A DNA stretch of 41,768 nucleotides from NCBI GenBank assembly GCA_003140855.1, contig PLLF01000045.1, positions 1-41,768 of the forward strand, in the 5' to 3' direction. The translations under genes were made by a program, and so were the position numbers. The notes under the pieces are model-generated. The model did not search any database, had not been told where the DNA came from, and saw nothing but the letters and a program-made list of their open reading frames with translations. Shown piece by piece: positions 1 to 31,874 of this stretch (its first letter is position 1; each line of letters opens with the position of its first letter). The stretch is from Vulcanimicrobiota bacterium. GTDB lineage: Bacteria > Vulcanimicrobiota > Vulcanimicrobiia > Vulcanimicrobiales > Vulcanimicrobiaceae.

Positions 1-105
1 ACACAGGCCGCTGCCCGGAAACGTCGAGAGACGCCAAGCGGGTAGACCAGACTTCGCCGATCTAAGGCGTCGTCTAATGCGGCTAAGCCCTCCGGGGCTT
101 TACGG
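1..105 (+). promoter_or_regulatory. M-box (ykoK) Mg2+ riboswitch, 5' end cut off by window
   Basis: The sequence at 9-43 matches the conserved core of the M-box: a CGCTGCCC block, a GTC-GAGA-GAC mini-hairpin (23-32), then GACGCCAA and GGGT (30-43). Further on, TAATGCGGCTAAGCC (from about 75) and an AAGCC/GGCTT hairpin (85-100) resemble the 3' half of the known aptamer. The 5' strand of the closing helices lies outside the window. M-box RNAs fold when Mg2+ is abundant and shut off Mg2+ transporter genes. This fits the next two genes. I cannot see a clear terminator; control may act on translation, since the start codon follows within about 40 bases. Confidence 0.85.
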
Positions 106-141
106 CGCGTGGTGCCAAAGCAGCCGCGATTGGGGTAGCAA

Positions 142-1440
142 ATGGCGTTTCAGGACGGATTCATTTCCGAGCTGGTCGGGCGGCGCGCGACCGTCAACGA
201 ATTGCCGATCGGCAAAGTCACCGATTTTCTCGTCAATAACCCCGATCAAACGTTTCCCGAAGTCGACGGGCTCATCATCAAGACGAGCCAAGGTCCGCGC
301 TTTGCACCGATGGATACGGTTTCCGACGTTGACGCCGATGGCGCCGTCGCGCTCAACGCCGCTCCGAAAGTCGCCGCTCCGCCCGATGAAGAGGCCTTGT
401 ACCTCGTGCTCGATCTGCTCGACAAGCAGATCGTCGACGTTGACGGCCGCAAAGTCGTGCGCATCAACGATATCGAGCTTGCCAACACTGGCGGGAAACT
501 GCGTGTCGTCGCAGCCGACGTTGGCGTCAGCGGACTGCTGCGCCGCCTCGGACTAAAGGGAATCGGAAAGCGCTTCACGCCATGGCTCTATCACAGCGTA
601 CCGCGTACGATGATCGCGTGGGATTCGGTCGCTCCGATTCGCGAGAAAAACCCGACGCAAGTCCGGCTGGCGGTGAAAGAAAGCAAGCTTACGCGCCTGC
701 ACCCGAGCGAACTGGCGGAAGTCATTAGCGATCTCTCCGCGCGCGGAGCTGCCGCGCTCATTCATTCACTTGACGATGAGACGGCGGCCGACGCGCTCGA
801 ACATCTCGAACCGGTAAAACAGCGCGCGATCATTGAAGACATTGGCCGCGAGCGCGCCGCCGACATTATCGAGGAGATGGACTCGGACGACGCCGCCGAC
901 CTTCTCGGCGAGCTTCCCGAGGAGCAGCAGAGCGAGCTGCTCGCCGAGATGAATCAATCGACAGCCGGCGAGCTGCGCGAGCTCGTGAAGTATGCGGAAG
1001 ATACGGCCGGCGGCCTGATGACGACCGATTACGTCTGGATTTATCCGCACCGCACCGCCGAACAGACGATTCACAAGATTCGCGAGATGGCGCCGGAGTC
1101 GGAGTTCATCTATTACCTCTACGTCGTCGACAAAGACGAACGGCTGCTGGGCGTCTTGACGCTGCGTGCGCTGTTACTGGCTCCTCCCGAAAACGTGATC
1201 GAACGCATCATGGAAGGCGAAGTCGTGACCGTTCCGCCGGAGATGCAGTCGCGCGACGTAGCCGCAACGATTGCACGATACGATCTGCTGGCCGTTCCCG
1301 TCGTCGGCCGCGAAGGCAACATGCTCGGGATCGTAACCGTCGACGATGCGATCGACGCGATCATGCCGGAGGATCTGGCAAAGGAACTTCCGCGCATTAC
1401 GCCCCCACGACGAACGGCTCGCCCGGCGGTCAAAGGCTAG
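142..1440 (+). CDS. Soluble PRC-barrel / MgtE-N / CBS-pair protein (Mg2+ sensor without channel)
   Basis: Residues 1-130 look like two PRC-barrel-type beta units (FISELVGRRATVNEL; DKQIVDVDGRKVVRI). Residues about 155-275 resemble the MgtE N superhelical domain, with the HPSELAEVISDL helix, acidic EEMDSDDAADLLGELPEE repeats and the family motif AEDTAGGLMT. A CBS pair follows (about 275-415). The protein ends where MgtE would enter its transmembrane channel, and no hydrophobic segment is present. In MgtE these two domains bind Mg2+ and gate the pore. Here they stand alone, behind an M-box and 3 bases before an NRAMP-type transporter, so I infer a Mg2+-responsive regulator of that transporter. 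Start ATG at 142 follows GGGGTAGCAA. Confidence 0.88.
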   Translation: MAFQDGFISELVGRRATVNELPIGKVTDFLVNNPDQTFPEVDGLIIKTSQGPRFAPMDTVSDVDADGAVALNAAPKVAAPPDEEALYLVLDLLDKQIVDVDGRKVVRINDIELANTGGKLRVVAADVGVSGLLRRLGLKGIGKRFTPWLYHSVPRTMIAWDSVAPIREKNPTQVRLAVKESKLTRLHPSELAEVISDLSARGAAALIHSLDDETAADALEHLEPVKQRAIIEDIGRERAADIIEEMDSDDAADLLGELPEEQQSELLAEMNQSTAGELRELVKYAEDTAGGLMTTDYVWIYPHRTAEQTIHKIREMAPESEFIYYLYVVDKDERLLGVLTLRALLLAPPENVIERIMEGEVVTVPPEMQSRDVAATIARYDLLAVPVVGREGNMLGIVTVDDAIDAIMPEDLAKELPRITPPRRTARPAVKG

Positions 1441-1443
1441 CTC

Positions 1444-2721
1444 GTGGTGCACGCGGTAATTCGCAGGCGAACCTGGTGGCGTTCGCTTCTGTTACTGCTG
1501 GCCGTCTTAGGCCCGGGCTTCATCACGGCGTCCGCCGGAAACGACGTCGGGGGCATTACGACCTACTCGCAAGCCGGCGCGCAATTCGGCTACCGCATCC
1601 TCTGGGTGCTGATTCCGCTCGCGCTCGCTTTGATCGTCGTTCAGGAAATGGCGACTCGCATGGCCGCGGTCACCGGCAAAGGTCTCGCCGCGCTGATCCG
1701 TGAGAATTTTGGCGTCCGCGTTTCGTTTTTCGCGATGGCCGCGCTATTCGCAATAAACCTCATCATCACCGCGACCGAGTTCGCGGGCATCGCGGCCGCC
1801 TCGGAGATGTTCCATGTCTCCAAATACATCGCAGTGCCAATCGCCGTGCTGCTCGTTTTGATTTTTGTATTTGGCTTCAACAGCAAGAGCATCGACCGCG
1901 TGTTCGTAGGCTTCTCGCTCATCTATTTCTGTTACATTGCTTCGGCGATACTGGCGCATCCCGATTGGAAAGCGGTCGCGCACGGCACGCTGGTGCCCAC
2001 GCTGAACTTCGGCAATCACCTATACCTCGTGATGGTCGTGGGATTGATCGGCACCACGATCTCGCCGTACATGCAGTTTTTCTTACAGTCCGCGGTCGTC
2101 GAAAAGGGTTCGGACGAACGAGAGCTCGGGCTGGCGCGCGCCGACGTCATTAGCGGCTCCATTTTGGCAATCGCGATCGCCGGTTTCATGATCATCGCCA
2201 ATGCGGCTACGATTTTCGCAGCCAACCGGCACGGCGCACATCTCGCACCGTCGCAGGCGGCGGATTTTGCCGCCGCACTGCGGCCGCTCGCCGGGCAATG
2301 GGCTTCGATCATCTTTGCGTTCGGAATACTGAACGCGGGACTCTTTACCGCCACCGTCCTGCCGCTTTCTACCAGTTACGTTATCTGCGAAGCGTTCGGC
2401 TTCGAGGCCGCACTGGATCGCAAGTTCTCCGAAGCTCCGGTCTTTTTTACGCTATTTGCCGTCACTCTGATCGCGGGAGCGGCACTGGTTCTGCTTCCGA
2501 GCCTTCCCTTGCTCAAGCTGATCTTTTACGCACAGGTAGCGCAGGGCATTTTGCTGCCGCCCGAGCTGGTGCTGATGCTGATCGTCATCAACAAACGAAC
2601 CGTCATGGGTAAATTTACAAACGGCTGGTTCGGCAATACGGTGGCGTGGGCCACGGTCGCGCTCGTGGGCGCGCTCTCGATCTATTACGTCGTCGTGCAA
2701 GTTTTCGGCGGAACGGCCTAG
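1444..2721 (+). CDS. NRAMP-related divalent metal transporter, probably Mg2+ (NrmT-like)
   Basis: 425 residues with about 11 hydrophobic segments. The opening GPGFITASAGNDVGG, followed by TTYSQAGAQFGY, aligns with NRAMP helix 1, but the classical DPGN reads DVGG: the Asp is kept and the Asn is lost. In helix 6, GTTISPYMQFF replaces the usual GATVMPHNLYL, so the Met that selects Mn/Fe is Ser and the His is Tyr. NRAMP-related Mg2+ transporters also lack this Met. With the M-box upstream and the MgtE-like partner, Mg2+ uptake across the inner membrane is the best reading. The start is GTG, with AAAGG 7 bases upstream inside the end of the previous gene; the two are translationally close (3-base gap). 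Confidence 0.88.
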   Translation: MVHAVIRRRTWWRSLLLLLAVLGPGFITASAGNDVGGITTYSQAGAQFGYRILWVLIPLALALIVVQEMATRMAAVTGKGLAALIRENFGVRVSFFAMAALFAINLIITATEFAGIAAASEMFHVSKYIAVPIAVLLVLIFVFGFNSKSIDRVFVGFSLIYFCYIASAILAHPDWKAVAHGTLVPTLNFGNHLYLVMVVGLIGTTISPYMQFFLQSAVVEKGSDERELGLARADVISGSILAIAIAGFMIIANAATIFAANRHGAHLAPSQAADFAAALRPLAGQWASIIFAFGILNAGLFTATVLPLSTSYVICEAFGFEAALDRKFSEAPVFFTLFAVTLIAGAALVLLPSLPLLKLIFYAQVAQGILLPPELVLMLIVINKRTVMGKFTNGWFGNTVAWATVALVGALSIYYVVVQVFGGTA

Positions 2722-2742: not shown

Positions 2743-3891
2743 ATGACGGCCGACGAATTGGTCGCATTTGCCGAAGATCTCGCGCGTATCGCCGCGGGGG
2801 GCGGCGGCGCGAAAGCGCTGGCCGGCCACCTAGCGAAGCGCACGAGCGTTGGCGTGCTTGTGGAAGACGCACAGTGGCGGCACCTCGCAGCCGCCGGCGG
2901 TACGGGCATGCCCAGCAGCGTGCAAGCGCTTCTGCATGACAATGCCTCGCCGGATTTTCAAAAGCTGCGCAACGGTTATGCGGGACGCACCGTCGCCATC
3001 GTCACCGGCGACACACGTTTGGGCCGCCTTTCGATTTTTGGAGCGAGCGATCTCGATAAGCTCGAACACGCTGCACGCTTGACTGCCAGCGCGATCGCGG
3101 TCGAACTCGCACGCGAATCCGGCGCGCAGCCCGGACGGCGCCGCACGTTCTGGGAGCAGCTCGTCGCGCAGACATATAACGATCCGGTTGCCGCGCGCGA
3201 CGATGCGGCGTCGCGCAGCATTGCGCTCGCGACGCATTACGTTGCGGTCGCGCTCGAAGCCGAGAACGCCGATGCAGTCGCGTTTCGCGTTGCCGTTCTG
3301 GAAGCGTTTCGCGGCGGAGAAGGCGATGCCGGGTTTCTCGAGCGTAGCGGCGCGCTGGTCGTTTTCGTCCCGGCTTCACGCGAGGTCGATGCGTCCAACA
3401 CGCGCGCCGCTGCGGCGCTGTTGCAGCGAAATCTTCAGAAGCAGCAACTTGAGGTTCGCATTACAGGCGGAGTCGGAACGCGCGTGGCGGCCTTGTCGCT
3501 GCAGCGTTCGCTTGCCGAAGCGGAAGCCGCACTGACGATCTGCCGTCGTCTTTACGGTTCGGGTCGCGTGGCAATTTATGAAGAGCTCGGCGGGTATCCA
3601 CTGCTGCTCTCCGGTGGCGATAGTAACGCGATGCGTGACTTCGCGCGCCGCATTCTCGCGCCGCTGCGCGCTTACGACGAAAAACACCAAACGGAATTGG
3701 AGAGAACGCTGCGCCTCTATTTTTCGGTCGGCGAAAATGTAAAAACGGCGGCCGCCGAACTCAACGTCCACCGGCATACCGTCTTCTATCGGCTTCGGCA
3801 AATCGGCGAAATCTGCGGCTGCAAGTTGGACGACCCTCACGACCAGCTCACGCTGAGAATGGCGATCGCGATCGATGCACTTACCGCTTAG
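2743..3891 (+). CDS. PucR/CdaR-family transcriptional regulator
   Basis: 382 residues. The C-terminal about 60 residues carry the PucR-type helix-turn-helix: LERTLRLYFSVGENVKTAAA, then LNVHRHTVFYRLRQI. The middle (about 130-300) resembles the degenerate GGDEF-like domain of CdaR/PucR proteins, with AEAEAALTICRRLYGSGRVAIYEELG near its end. The N-terminus (1-110) may be a GAF/PAS-like sensor. Family members control purine, sugar-acid or amino acid use. It starts 21 bases after the transporter and overlaps the following glutamine synthetase by 17 bases, so control of that gene or its pathway is likely. The ligand is unknown. Confidence 0.85.
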   Translation: MTADELVAFAEDLARIAAGGGGAKALAGHLAKRTSVGVLVEDAQWRHLAAAGGTGMPSSVQALLHDNASPDFQKLRNGYAGRTVAIVTGDTRLGRLSIFGASDLDKLEHAARLTASAIAVELARESGAQPGRRRTFWEQLVAQTYNDPVAARDDAASRSIALATHYVAVALEAENADAVAFRVAVLEAFRGGEGDAGFLERSGALVVFVPASREVDASNTRAAAALLQRNLQKQQLEVRITGGVGTRVAALSLQRSLAEAEAALTICRRLYGSGRVAIYEELGGYPLLLSGGDSNAMRDFARRILAPLRAYDEKHQTELERTLRLYFSVGENVKTAAAELNVHRHTVFYRLRQIGEICGCKLDDPHDQLTLRMAIAIDALTA

Positions 3892-5185
3892 CGATTCCCG
3901 GCGCGCGGCCAGCAAGCACGAAGTCTTGCGCCTGGCCAAGGATCGTAACGTCCAATTCGTCCGGCTGTCCTTTGTCGACGTGCTTGGCGTCGCAAAAAAC
4001 GTTTCGATTCCGGCGACCGAACTCGAAGCCGCGCTCGACGGCAAGGTCACCTTCGACGGCGGATCGATCGACGGATTCGTCCGCGGTGAAGAACTCGACA
4101 TGGTGCTGCGGCCCGATCCCTCGACGTTCGCGCTGTATCCATGGTCCACGCCGGAATTGCCCGAAGCGCGTTTGCTGTGCGATATTGCGATGCCGGACGG
4201 ATCGTCGTTCGAAGGCTGTCCGCGCACCACGCTCAAACGCGCGATCGAAGAGGCCAAAGGATCGCTCGAAGGCATCGCGGTTGCGCTCGAAGTCGAGTTT
4301 TACTTATTCGAAGCGCTGGACAGCGAATACGGCTCGACCAAAACCGCCGACGTCGGCTCGTATTTCGATTTTTCCGCCAACGACCACGGTGAGGACGCGC
4401 GCAGCGCGATCGTGGCGGCACTGCAAACGATGGGGGTCGCGGTTGCGAGTTCGCATCACGAGCACGGCCCCGGGCAGCACGAGATTGATTTTCCACATGG
4501 CAACCCACTCGCCGCCGCAGACGCGTTGCTCACGCTCCGCTCGATCGCCAAACATGTCGCAGCCGCGCGCGGCCTGGAAGCAACGTTCATGCCCAAGCCG
4601 ATCGAGGATCGCGCCGGCAGCGGCCTGCACGTCAATTTCCGCGTTTCAGCCGAGCAGCAGCCCGAAACACTCTACATGATCGGCGGCTTGCTCGCGCACG
4701 CGCCCGCGCTGACCGCGGTGTGCAATTCGACCGTCAATTCATACAAACGGCTGGTCAACGCGTGGGACGCGCCGATTTACACCGTGTGGTCGGAGCGCAG
4801 CGCCAACGCGCTCGTGCGCGTTCCGCGCGAGCAACCTCCGCAAATCGAGATGCGCAGCCCGGACGCAGCCGGCAATCCATATCTTTCGCTGGCCGTTTTG
4901 CTCGGGGCGCTGGCCGACGGCGTCGTGCAGCATCTCCTTCCCGGCGATCCGCTCGTCGGTTCGACGTACGATTTGGCCGAACGGGAACGCCACGAGCGTG
5001 GCATCGGCACGCTCCCGAAATCTCTACGCCAAGCGATCACCGAACTCGACAACGATCCTGTCGTCCGCGCCGCGCTCGGCGATCACATCTATCATGCATT
5101 CCGCGATGCGAAGCTGGCGGAATACGAACGGTATCGCCGCGCGGTTCATCCTTGGGAGCACCGCGCGTACCTCAGACTGTACTGA
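3875..5185 (+). CDS. Glutamine synthetase family protein, short type I (GSI-alpha-like)
   Basis: 436 residues, close to the short GSI-alpha length. Beta-grasp domain at about 20-105 (FVRLSFVDVLGVAKN; GSIDGFVRGEE). Catalytic domain after that, with EVEFYLFE, HHEHGPGQHEIDF, FMPKPIEDRAGSGLHVNF, NSTVNSYKRL and EMRSPDAAGNPYLSLAVLL. These supply the Mg/Mn, ATP and glutamate residues. The C-terminal adenylylation Tyr segment of GSI-beta is absent. The enzyme should ligate ammonia, or in some relatives a polyamine, to glutamate; gamma-glutamylpolyamine synthetase cannot be excluded. The PucR-type regulator just upstream favours a catabolic or scavenging role. A second, canonical GS is at 33729. Confidence 0.85.
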   Translation: MHLPLSDSRRAASKHEVLRLAKDRNVQFVRLSFVDVLGVAKNVSIPATELEAALDGKVTFDGGSIDGFVRGEELDMVLRPDPSTFALYPWSTPELPEARLLCDIAMPDGSSFEGCPRTTLKRAIEEAKGSLEGIAVALEVEFYLFEALDSEYGSTKTADVGSYFDFSANDHGEDARSAIVAALQTMGVAVASSHHEHGPGQHEIDFPHGNPLAAADALLTLRSIAKHVAAARGLEATFMPKPIEDRAGSGLHVNFRVSAEQQPETLYMIGGLLAHAPALTAVCNSTVNSYKRLVNAWDAPIYTVWSERSANALVRVPREQPPQIEMRSPDAAGNPYLSLAVLLGALADGVVQHLLPGDPLVGSTYDLAERERHERGIGTLPKSLRQAITELDNDPVVRAALGDHIYHAFRDAKLAEYERYRRAVHPWEHRAYLRLY

Positions 5186-29901: not shown

Positions 29902-30044
29902 GGTATCTGGACTTACCACGTTTGCGCGCGGGAAGCCGGTCCAATGCCGGCACGGTCGCGCCACTGTAGGCGGGGAGCCGCCCGATGTCACTCCTTTTGG
30001 GGGAAGGCCCGGGCACGAGGCTACGATCCGCGAGTCAGGATACC
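29902..30044 (+). promoter_or_regulatory. Cobalamin (AdoCbl) riboswitch
   Basis: The B12 box GCCACTG is at 29960-29966, between GGGAAGCCGGT (about 29930) and GGCGGGGAGCCGCCCGATGTC. The later block CACGAGGCTACGATCCGCGAGTCAGGATACC is the usual 3' half. GGTATC (29902-29907) can pair with GATACC (30039-30044) as helix P1. It reads towards the TonB receptor, 45 bases downstream, and should switch off B12 uptake when B12 is plentiful. I see no terminator; sequestration of the AGGGAAAGGG ribosome site is possible. Confidence 0.93.
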
Positions 30045-30089
30045 AGCGCAAACGGCACACAACCACCTCGCGTCAGGGAAAGGGTTGCA

Positions 30090-31874
30090 ATGTTTTCGTT
30101 TCTGCTGGTTATCGTACTCGGCGCCGCCGGACCGTCGCCGTCTCCTTCACCGCTCCCCGAAATCGCGCACGTCTACACGAGCGATCGCACCGACGAGACG
30201 CTCAATAATTCCGCGCGCACCAGTTACATCGTCACGCGAGCGGACATCGCCCGCCATGGATACCGCACGGTCGGTGAGGCGCTCGAAAATCTCCCCGCTT
30301 TTGAATTTTCTCCTTACGGCGCGATCGGCAGCACCGCGCAATACGGTGTGCGCGGCAACAACAGCGCGCAGGTTCTCGTGCTTGTCGACGGCTTGCCTGC
30401 ACCGGGATCGTTTGCAAACTCGGTCGAGCTCGGAACGATGCCGACGACCGGCGTCGATCGAATCGAGCTCGTTGAAGGCGGCGGCTCGACGCTGTACGGA
30501 ACGGGCGCAATCGGCGGCATCATCAACGTCATCACTGAGCGCAAAGCTGCAGACGGCGTGACGCTGCGCGGGGGCTCTTTCAGCGACAGCTCATTCGAAC
30601 TGCGCACTCCCAACATACAATTTTCGCGCATCGTCGCGCGCAATGATTTTGCGCAGCCCGACGGAACCACCCGCCCGAACAGCGACTATCAGACCTCCAT
30701 GCTGCATGCAAACTTCGGCACGCGTATCGGATCTTTCGATGCGGTTTTACGCGCAGAAATCTCGAGCGACCGCGGCGGCGCTCCGGGACCGACGGAATTT
30801 ACGTCGCTCACGTCGAGGCAAAAGGACCTGAACGCAGGCGCCAACCTAACGCTCACGCACAAGAGCCCACAAGCGGAGGCGACCCTGCAATTCGGAGGTA
30901 CGCGGCAGCAAATAACCTTCGCGTGCGATGCGGTGAACGATCCGAACTGCTTTCAATCCGCCGAATCGCTCAACACCGAAGGGCGTTTCGATTTTGGCGC
31001 CCGCAACGTTGTCAGCGGCAACAACGAGCAATTACTCTACGGCGTCGACCTGGCGCGCGGAACCGTACGCAGCGATGCCGGCGGCTTGTTTTCGACGAAC
31101 AGCTTGTCGCAAACCGCCGCCTACGTTCAGCAAAAATTCTCGACGCGCTGGGGAAGCGCGTATGCCGGCGTGCGCGGCGAACGCGACGGCTCACTCGGCG
31201 GAGAGTTTTCCCCTTCGGCCGGCTTCGTCGTTCGTCTTTCGAATGAAGCATCGCTCAAAGGCAATATCGCAACCGCCTTTCGCGCGCCGGATGCGAGCGA
31301 GCTCTTCTTTCCGTTCTTTGGAAACCCGGCGCTCAAACCGGAGCGCGCGAAGGTGGCCGACTTAACGCTGGTCGATTCGCGACTGCTCGGCGGCGTCGCG
31401 CTCGGATGGTTCGGCAATCGCACCAACAATCTGATCGTGACGACGCTGATCGATCCGGTCAACTTTATCTTCGCGCCGGAAAACGTCGGCCACGCATTGG
31501 TTGAAGGCTTGACGCTCGACGCCAAGACGCATCCGCTGCACGGCTTCACCGCTTCGTTCAATTTAACCGACCTCTATCGAGCCGAAGATCTCGACGCGAA
31601 AACGCGGCTGCCCGACGACCCTGTTCTCACGGCGAATCTCGGGCTCGATTACGCGGGCGGCGGATTCGTCGAGGCGTTCGGCACGTCGGTCCATTCCGTG
31701 GGCGCGCACGGGCCGGCCGGATTCACCCGCACCGATGCCTACCTGTCACTGCGCGCCGCGCCGAACGTGCTCTTCACGCTGCGCGCGTATAACTTCGGAA
31801 ATGCGCGCTACGAAGCGGTGAACGGATTCCCGATGCCGGGCCGCACGTTCGCATTCGAACTATCGACGCGCTAG
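30090..31874 (+). CDS. TonB-dependent outer-membrane receptor (BtuB-like)
   Basis: 594 residues from ATG 30090, with AGGGAAAGGG just upstream. Signal peptide 1-14, a short PSPSPSP linker, then the plug domain (TVGEALENLPAFEFSPYGAI; VRGNNSAQVLVLVDGLPAPG; IELVEGGGSTLYGTGAIGGI) and a 22-strand-type barrel ending in FAFELSTR. The barrel blocks AFRAPDASELFFPFFGNPAL and KPERAKVADL are typical of small-ligand receptors. With the cobalamin riboswitch before it, B12 uptake is the best role. The frame is open to 29985, but that part is riboswitch. Confidence 0.93.
   Translation: MFSFLLVIVLGAAGPSPSPSPLPEIAHVYTSDRTDETLNNSARTSYIVTRADIARHGYRTVGEALENLPAFEFSPYGAIGSTAQYGVRGNNSAQVLVLVDGLPAPGSFANSVELGTMPTTGVDRIELVEGGGSTLYGTGAIGGIINVITERKAADGVTLRGGSFSDSSFELRTPNIQFSRIVARNDFAQPDGTTRPNSDYQTSMLHANFGTRIGSFDAVLRAEISSDRGGAPGPTEFTSLTSRQKDLNAGANLTLTHKSPQAEATLQFGGTRQQITFACDAVNDPNCFQSAESLNTEGRFDFGARNVVSGNNEQLLYGVDLARGTVRSDAGGLFSTNSLSQTAAYVQQKFSTRWGSAYAGVRGERDGSLGGEFSPSAGFVVRLSNEASLKGNIATAFRAPDASELFFPFFGNPALKPERAKVADLTLVDSRLLGGVALGWFGNRTNNLIVTTLIDPVNFIFAPENVGHALVEGLTLDAKTHPLHGFTASFNLTDLYRAEDLDAKTRLPDDPVLTANLGLDYAGGGFVEAFGTSVHSVGAHGPAGFTRTDAYLSLRAAPNVLFTLRAYNFGNARYEAVNGFPMPGRTFAFELSTR

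Follow-up and report, generated by a model that had tools for sequence, protein, structure and literature searches.

An M-box riboswitch, a soluble protein built from the cytosolic Mg2+-sensing domains of MgtE and an NRAMP-related Mg2+ transporter (NRMT) stand together in a module which is real and is conserved across two phyla in the present survey. The best explanation for the grouping, and one which we favour on balance, is that the soluble protein acts as a Mg2+-dependent sensor on the NRMT within an M-box-controlled uptake operon. The window, by which we mean the whole stretch of 41,768 nucleotides that was analysed, is one complete contig of a 2.28 Mb genome in 116 contigs (completeness ~94 %). 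The genes at its beginning are as follows, and the coordinates given in an initial annotation proved to be correct.

1..141, + strand: M-box (ykoK leader) Mg2+ riboswitch, 5' end truncated by the contig edge (RF00380)
142..1440, + strand: ORF1, predicted soluble Mg2+-sensor protein, 432 residues (Pfam and MgtE structure matches, Mg-site ligands)
1444..2721, + strand: ORF2, predicted NRAMP-related Mg2+ transporter (NRMT), 425 residues, GTG start (Pfam Nramp and EleNRMT matches)
2743..3891, + strand: PucR/CdaR-type regulator (PF13556, E 1.5e-18)
3875..5185, + strand: glutamine synthetase-like protein, GS (PF00120, E 7.7e-92)

With a gene for MgtE cytosolic domains adjoining an NRMT gene behind an M-box, the locus fits the definition of the NrmT operon given by Shin et al. 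2014 (PMC4072509). The PucR and GS genes probably lie outside the module, as neighbours that are conserved in the window's class only.

The M-box which the initial annotation had placed before ORF1 was recovered using cmscan as a significant match to RF00380 at positions 1-141 of the window (+ strand; 94 bits against a gathering score of 44, E 1.3e-19; model positions 33-169). It follows the aptamer consensus of the ykoK leader and is the sole M-box found in the genome. Since the contig begins inside the aptamer, the 5' strand of P1 lies beyond the contig edge; the complete aptamer, including P1, is present in congeners. The core occupies positions 1-104, and the 3' strand of P1 leads directly into the start of ORF1, enclosing a Shine-Dalgarno-like GGGG stretch at 132-135, 6 bases from the ATG. 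In three congeners (L004, L053 and L054), about 77 extra bases separate the aptamer from the start of ORF1, in the interval corresponding to 105-141 of the window, and supply a Shine-Dalgarno of their own as well as an intrinsic terminator, whereas the window has neither. The same short leader was seen in three genomes of other genera (L058, L061 and L071), and translational control of ORF1 is therefore plausible, although the absence of the 77-base segment, at a site ~140 bases from the contig end, may be an assembly artefact. Mg2+-dependent control of expression by this M-box is predicted.

ORF1 had been described as a free-standing PRC/MgtE-N/CBS protein without the MgtE pore, and the domain searches agree with that description. 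Pfam matches were obtained for MgtE_N (E 6.9e-26) and two CBS domains (E 2.6e-18), together with a weak PRC match barely over the curated cut-off (E 1.8e-4). The protein runs from a PRC-barrel-like region (~1-165) through MgtE_N (186-287) and the CBS pair (to ~410) into a basic tail. The pore domain PF01769 was absent from ORF1 in the Pfam search, and a search of the protein for a hydrophobic helix found none, the highest mean hydropathy over 19 residues being 1.44. ORF1 matches structures of the MgtE cytosolic domain (E 2e-38), and its predicted fold resembles the Mg2+-bound form of that domain, 2yvy (TMt 0.85, rmsd 2.1). The N and CBS fold and most cytosolic Mg2+ ligands are alike in ORF1 and the MgtE Mg2+ channel of T. 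thermophilus (2YVX, 2ZY9), however, ORF1 lacks the plug helix and the pore, carries the extra PRC-barrel region and is separate from the transporter that it may control.

On alignment of ORF1 to T. thermophilus MgtE (2yvy), with the roles of the Mg2+ sites taken from PMC5882242, the Mg4 ligands D91 and D247 correspond to D249 and D402, the Mg5 ligands D226 and D250 to D381 and D405, the Mg6 ligand D95 to D253 and the Mg7 ligand E59 to D217. The plug-helix residues E258 and D259 have no counterpart in ORF1, and the position of E216 is taken by R371. Homologues of ORF1 follow the same pattern: D91 and D247 are invariant (144/144 sensors), and within the window's phylum D95 is kept in 67/67, D226 and D250 in 66/67 each, with E59 replaced by D in most of these 67 sensors. 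Among the sensors of Coriobacteriia, D226 is often N (34/77) and D95 is often E (27/77), and those Mg2+ sites are therefore less strict in that class.

The claim that an NRAMP-type carrier begins 3 bases after the stop of ORF1 likewise held, with ORF2 matching Pfam Nramp at E 6.4e-90. Its nearest solved relative is EleNRMT of Eggerthella lenta (7QIA; E 9.5e-97), a structure solved by Ramanadane et al. 2022 (PMC8806188), followed by D. radiodurans MntH (1.7e-23), and 7qia also ranked first in the fold comparison (TMt 0.90). Judged by its sequence, ORF2 is a member of the NRMT clade, nearer to NRMTs than to classical NRAMPs. The residues at its metal site are D34-x-x-G37 and T204-T-I-S207; thus, with reference to the NRMT motifs DxxG of helix 1 and TxxA/T of helix 6, D34, G37 and T204 are present and the third residue is S207 rather than A or T. 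Serine at this position is seen in 40 of the 49 sensor-paired NRMTs of the phylum and in 2/10 NRMTs of Coriobacteriia. The carrier clade, the DxxG and TTI motifs and the fold are common to ORF2 and EleNRMT, whereas the residue at EleNRMT position 227 is A in EleNRMT and S in ORF2. Transport of Mg2+ by ORF2 is predicted. A search of the window's genome for MgtE pores, CorA and CNNM proteins found neither of the first two and one CNNM protein; the NRMT is therefore probably the main Mg2+ importer of the genome.

Conservation of this neighbourhood in other genomes was evident from a survey of 149 genomes of the window's phylum. There were 121 matches for sensor homologues, of which at least 63, in 62 genomes, were followed by a same-strand NRMT, and at least 39 of these 63 had an M-box just upstream; both counts are lower bounds, since the M-box filters were strict and contig ends interrupt some pairs. 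The intergenic gaps are mostly of -26 to +12 nt. Both genes were present in 113 genomes and neither in 27, while 7 had only the sensor and 2 only the NRMT (Fisher p 5e-21, a value that treats genomes as independent of shared ancestry). In one of the sensor-only genomes, G056, a contig end cuts through a pair, the identity to the NRMT of its sister being 95 %, and the remaining exceptions come from genomes less than 75 % complete, with the exception of G079 (91 %). Full MgtE pores in the phylum were found only in other families, mostly those without the sensor/NRMT pair.

About half of the sensors of the phylum are not adjacent to an NRMT. In such cases a separate M-box usually accompanies the NRMT at its own locus, and the sensors of the window's class keep their PucR-GS neighbours. 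In a tree of NRMTs, the window falls within a clade of 27 in which all are sensor-adjacent (27/27; the sequences were fetched and their sampling was partly by adjacency). A second type of NRMT is sensor-adjacent in some lineages and separate in others, and both types adjoin the same sensor. No gene fusion of sensor and NRMT was found among the loci examined in the phylum and in Coriobacteriia. Long open frames in G050, G052 and G010 were considered as candidate fusions and ruled out, as the best NRMT match lay on another contig.

Other genes were also noted around such loci. Proteins of ~570-620 residues, which begin with a hydrophobic segment and include a stretch rich in Pro and Ser, adjoin separate NRMT genes at L200:2469-4322 (-), L208:2212-4062 (+) and L203:3302-5001 (+), lying between M-box and NRMT in L200 and L208; the two that were searched, from L200 and L203, had no Pfam match. 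Genes of the MgtC family adjoin separate M-box/NRMT loci of the same phylum (L205:4098-4817 (+) and L210:1212-1925 (+)). A lone sensor beside a gene for a Na+/H+ exchanger or an ion channel was seen in two distantly related genomes of the phylum (L049:1440-2630 (+) and L052:4121-4798 (+)). Elsewhere in the window, a cobalamin riboswitch (65 bits) at 29930-30044 lies directly 5' of a gene for a TonB-dependent receptor (ORF 29985-31874, the real start being probably further 3'), which is an ordinary arrangement for B12 uptake.

The second phylum was scanned using an alignment headed by EleNRMT, which yielded 80 loci, all from Coriobacteriia, to which EleNRMT also belongs. In 78 of the 80 the sensor directly precedes the NRMT, and in the other two the NRMT gene begins within 650 bases of the contig start. 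PucR and GS were absent from the vicinity of the NRMT in all 80. An M-box was detected in 2 of the 15 Coriobacteriia loci scanned, and it is therefore not a constant part of the module. With close homologues in the same order throughout one phylum and in a second, the sensor/NRMT arrangement goes well beyond what chance would give. What is established is the presence of the RNA and of the domains, the retention of the ligands, the identity of the NRMT, the gene order and the co-occurrence.

Sensors of Coriobacteriia also offer a view of where the protein may have come from. It was possible to delimit the tail after the CBS domains in 62 of them: a single membrane helix is predicted in 18, as in the Eggerthellaceae type, and four or more in 44 (such C-terminal membrane domains include L144:3320-3937, L130:3246-3890, L151:3344-3952 and 17 others). 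Using hhalign, the longer tails aligned with the MgtE membrane domain over 182 columns (probability 84 %, E 7.6e-6), whereas the same tails compared with NRMT as a control gave a probability of 0.2 %. The conserved GGN motif of the pore is absent from these longer tails. The membrane remnant would be a decayed MgtE domain or a single helix in Coriobacteriia, and there is none in the window's class. This single profile comparison suggests, as its simplest reading, that the sensor derives from an MgtE by decay and stepwise loss of the pore. A more tentative proposal, which we would put forward as possible rather than probable, is that conversion of an MgtE channel gave rise to the sensor, which now serves as a Mg2+-dependent gate, in trans, of an unrelated LeuT-fold carrier.

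Operons of M-box, MgtE fragment and NrmT, along with their occurrence in further phyla, were reported by Shin et al. 2014 (PMC4072509), who also proposed cytoplasmic feedback; the idea of feedback in trans is therefore not new, and the hypothesis is identical for their operons and for the present one. The operons of C. acetobutylicum (Ca_c0685) and A. capsulatum (Acp2976-2977) show the same grouping of M-box, MgtE cytosolic-domain gene and carrier, although no M-box accompanies the A. capsulatum pair and the fragment of C. acetobutylicum comes in two pieces, whereas a single gene encodes the window sensor, which begins with a PRC-barrel region. A literature search which covered few subscription papers found no later work on the MgtE-like fragment, and the text of Ramanadane et al. 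2022 (PMC8806188) makes no mention of a riboswitch, an operon or a CBS protein. The arrangement is thus known. To it the present survey adds that sensor and NRMT are paired almost obligately, that the Mg2+ ligands are retained and that many Coriobacteriia sensors keep a decayed MgtE-like membrane domain, and EleNRMT offers a ready test.

In the mechanism that we favour, low cellular Mg2+ would let the M-box allow expression of the operon, and the NRMT would import Mg2+. The ORF1 product would represent a soluble copy of the cytosolic Mg2+ sensor of MgtE with an added PRC-barrel region. On a rise in Mg2+ the ion would fill the acidic clefts that lie between the N domain and the CBS pair of this protein, giving a compact MgtE-like form which, by analogy with the action of the same domains on the MgtE pore, may slow or close the NRMT. 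The sensor would act in trans, since its gene is often non-adjacent to the NRMT and yet almost always in the same genome. We infer that the two genes are co-transcribed, that the sensor docks directly on the NRMT, that its effect is inhibition and not activation, and that the signal is Mg2+ and not Mn2+. Gating or tuning of the carrier by the sensor in trans, as the initial annotation suggested, is plausible and is strengthened by the co-occurrence, the invariant ligands and the MgtE fold; structural modelling gave only a modest excess over a control, and published co-expression did not favour it. Two of the outcomes which that annotation named as refuting it, a lack of a significant M-box match and a lack of a conserved neighbourhood, were not borne out.

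As regards the modelling, both window genes lie in one frame, and reading the TAG stop as Q gave a single chain of 859 residues, a modelling device that makes no claim of read-through in the cell. AlphaFold2 modelled this chain with pLDDT 85.8, pTM 0.68 and a disordered joint (62 sequences, 29 read-through pairs), as compared to pLDDT 82.2 and pTM 0.59 for a control chain of NRMT and PucR. The excess in pTM, a global score, is suggestive at most of contact between sensor and NRMT, because the PucR of the control is itself poorly modelled. The co-expression result is that of Shin et al. 2014 (PMC4072509), in which the A. capsulatum fragment did not improve the rescue of a Mg2+-import mutant. 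It would be weak evidence against a gate, since the assay scores growth when Mg2+ is low, a condition in which a sensor that inhibits would have no effect.

Both the C. acetobutylicum NrmT (Shin et al. 2014, PMC4072509) and EleNRMT (PMC8806188) transport without a partner, and the sensor is therefore not essential for transport. The same activity in heterologous assays, along with the unchanged rescue on co-expression, would also suit a sensor that is a cytosolic Mg2+ buffer, a chaperone or an assembly or stability factor for the NRMT and not a feedback gate; Shin et al. 2014 themselves name a metal chaperone as an alternative, the PRC-barrel region is foreign to canonical MgtE, and isolated EleNRMT is unstable (PMC8806188). 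Such a role nevertheless appears unlikely to us. The ligands that are kept (Mg4, Mg5, Mg6 and Mg7) are those that drive closure of MgtE, and a simple scaffold needs none of them, while a protein of low abundance would presumably be unable to buffer millimolar Mg2+.

If the two proteins merely share regulation through the Mg2+ response of the M-box and make no contact, the indecisive read-through model and the lack of fusion proteins among the loci examined would be expected. We consider this rather improbable, as the pairing within genomes persists in lineages that have retained an M-box for the NRMT alone, with the sensor at another site, and membrane segments are common in the sensors of Coriobacteriia, which would thereby share a membrane with the carrier.

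A further reading is that of a Mn2+ module, in which Mn2+ is both the main ion imported by the NRMT and the ion to which the sensor responds. It draws on the A. capsulatum NrmT, which rescued a Mn2+ defect fully and a Mg2+ defect only at low millimolar Mg2+, and on the transport of Mn2+ also by EleNRMT. It is, however, very unlikely for the window, whose operon has an M-box where that of A. capsulatum has none, whose NRMT keeps the site residues, and whose genome, having neither MgtE pore nor CorA, yet needs a Mg2+ importer. Equally slight is the chance that the sensor mainly serves another process of the class, such as the PucR-glutamine synthetase locus, with the NRMT neighbourhood being secondary: PucR and GS adjoin the sensor even at loci without an NRMT, but as true partners of the sensor they are rejected as a general explanation by their absence from Coriobacteriia, where the sensor stands beside the NRMT in 78 of 80 loci, and the sensor/NRMT co-occurrence holds even when the genes are unlinked and many sensors are preceded by an M-box.

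For the Mg2+-dependent sensor that we favour, the survey makes the role of the fragment directly testable, as EleNRMT, for which structures and a liposome assay exist, was studied alone, whereas in Eggerthella sinensis, Gordonibacter and others a gene for a sensor with a membrane helix directly precedes that of a close relative of EleNRMT. Should the sensor indeed gate the carrier, a single operon would control one ion through both RNA and protein, and the regulatory domain of a channel would have been passed on to a carrier unrelated to it. If, in addition, the gate is a converted MgtE, the functional and structural studies of NRMTs so far would have covered half of the machine.
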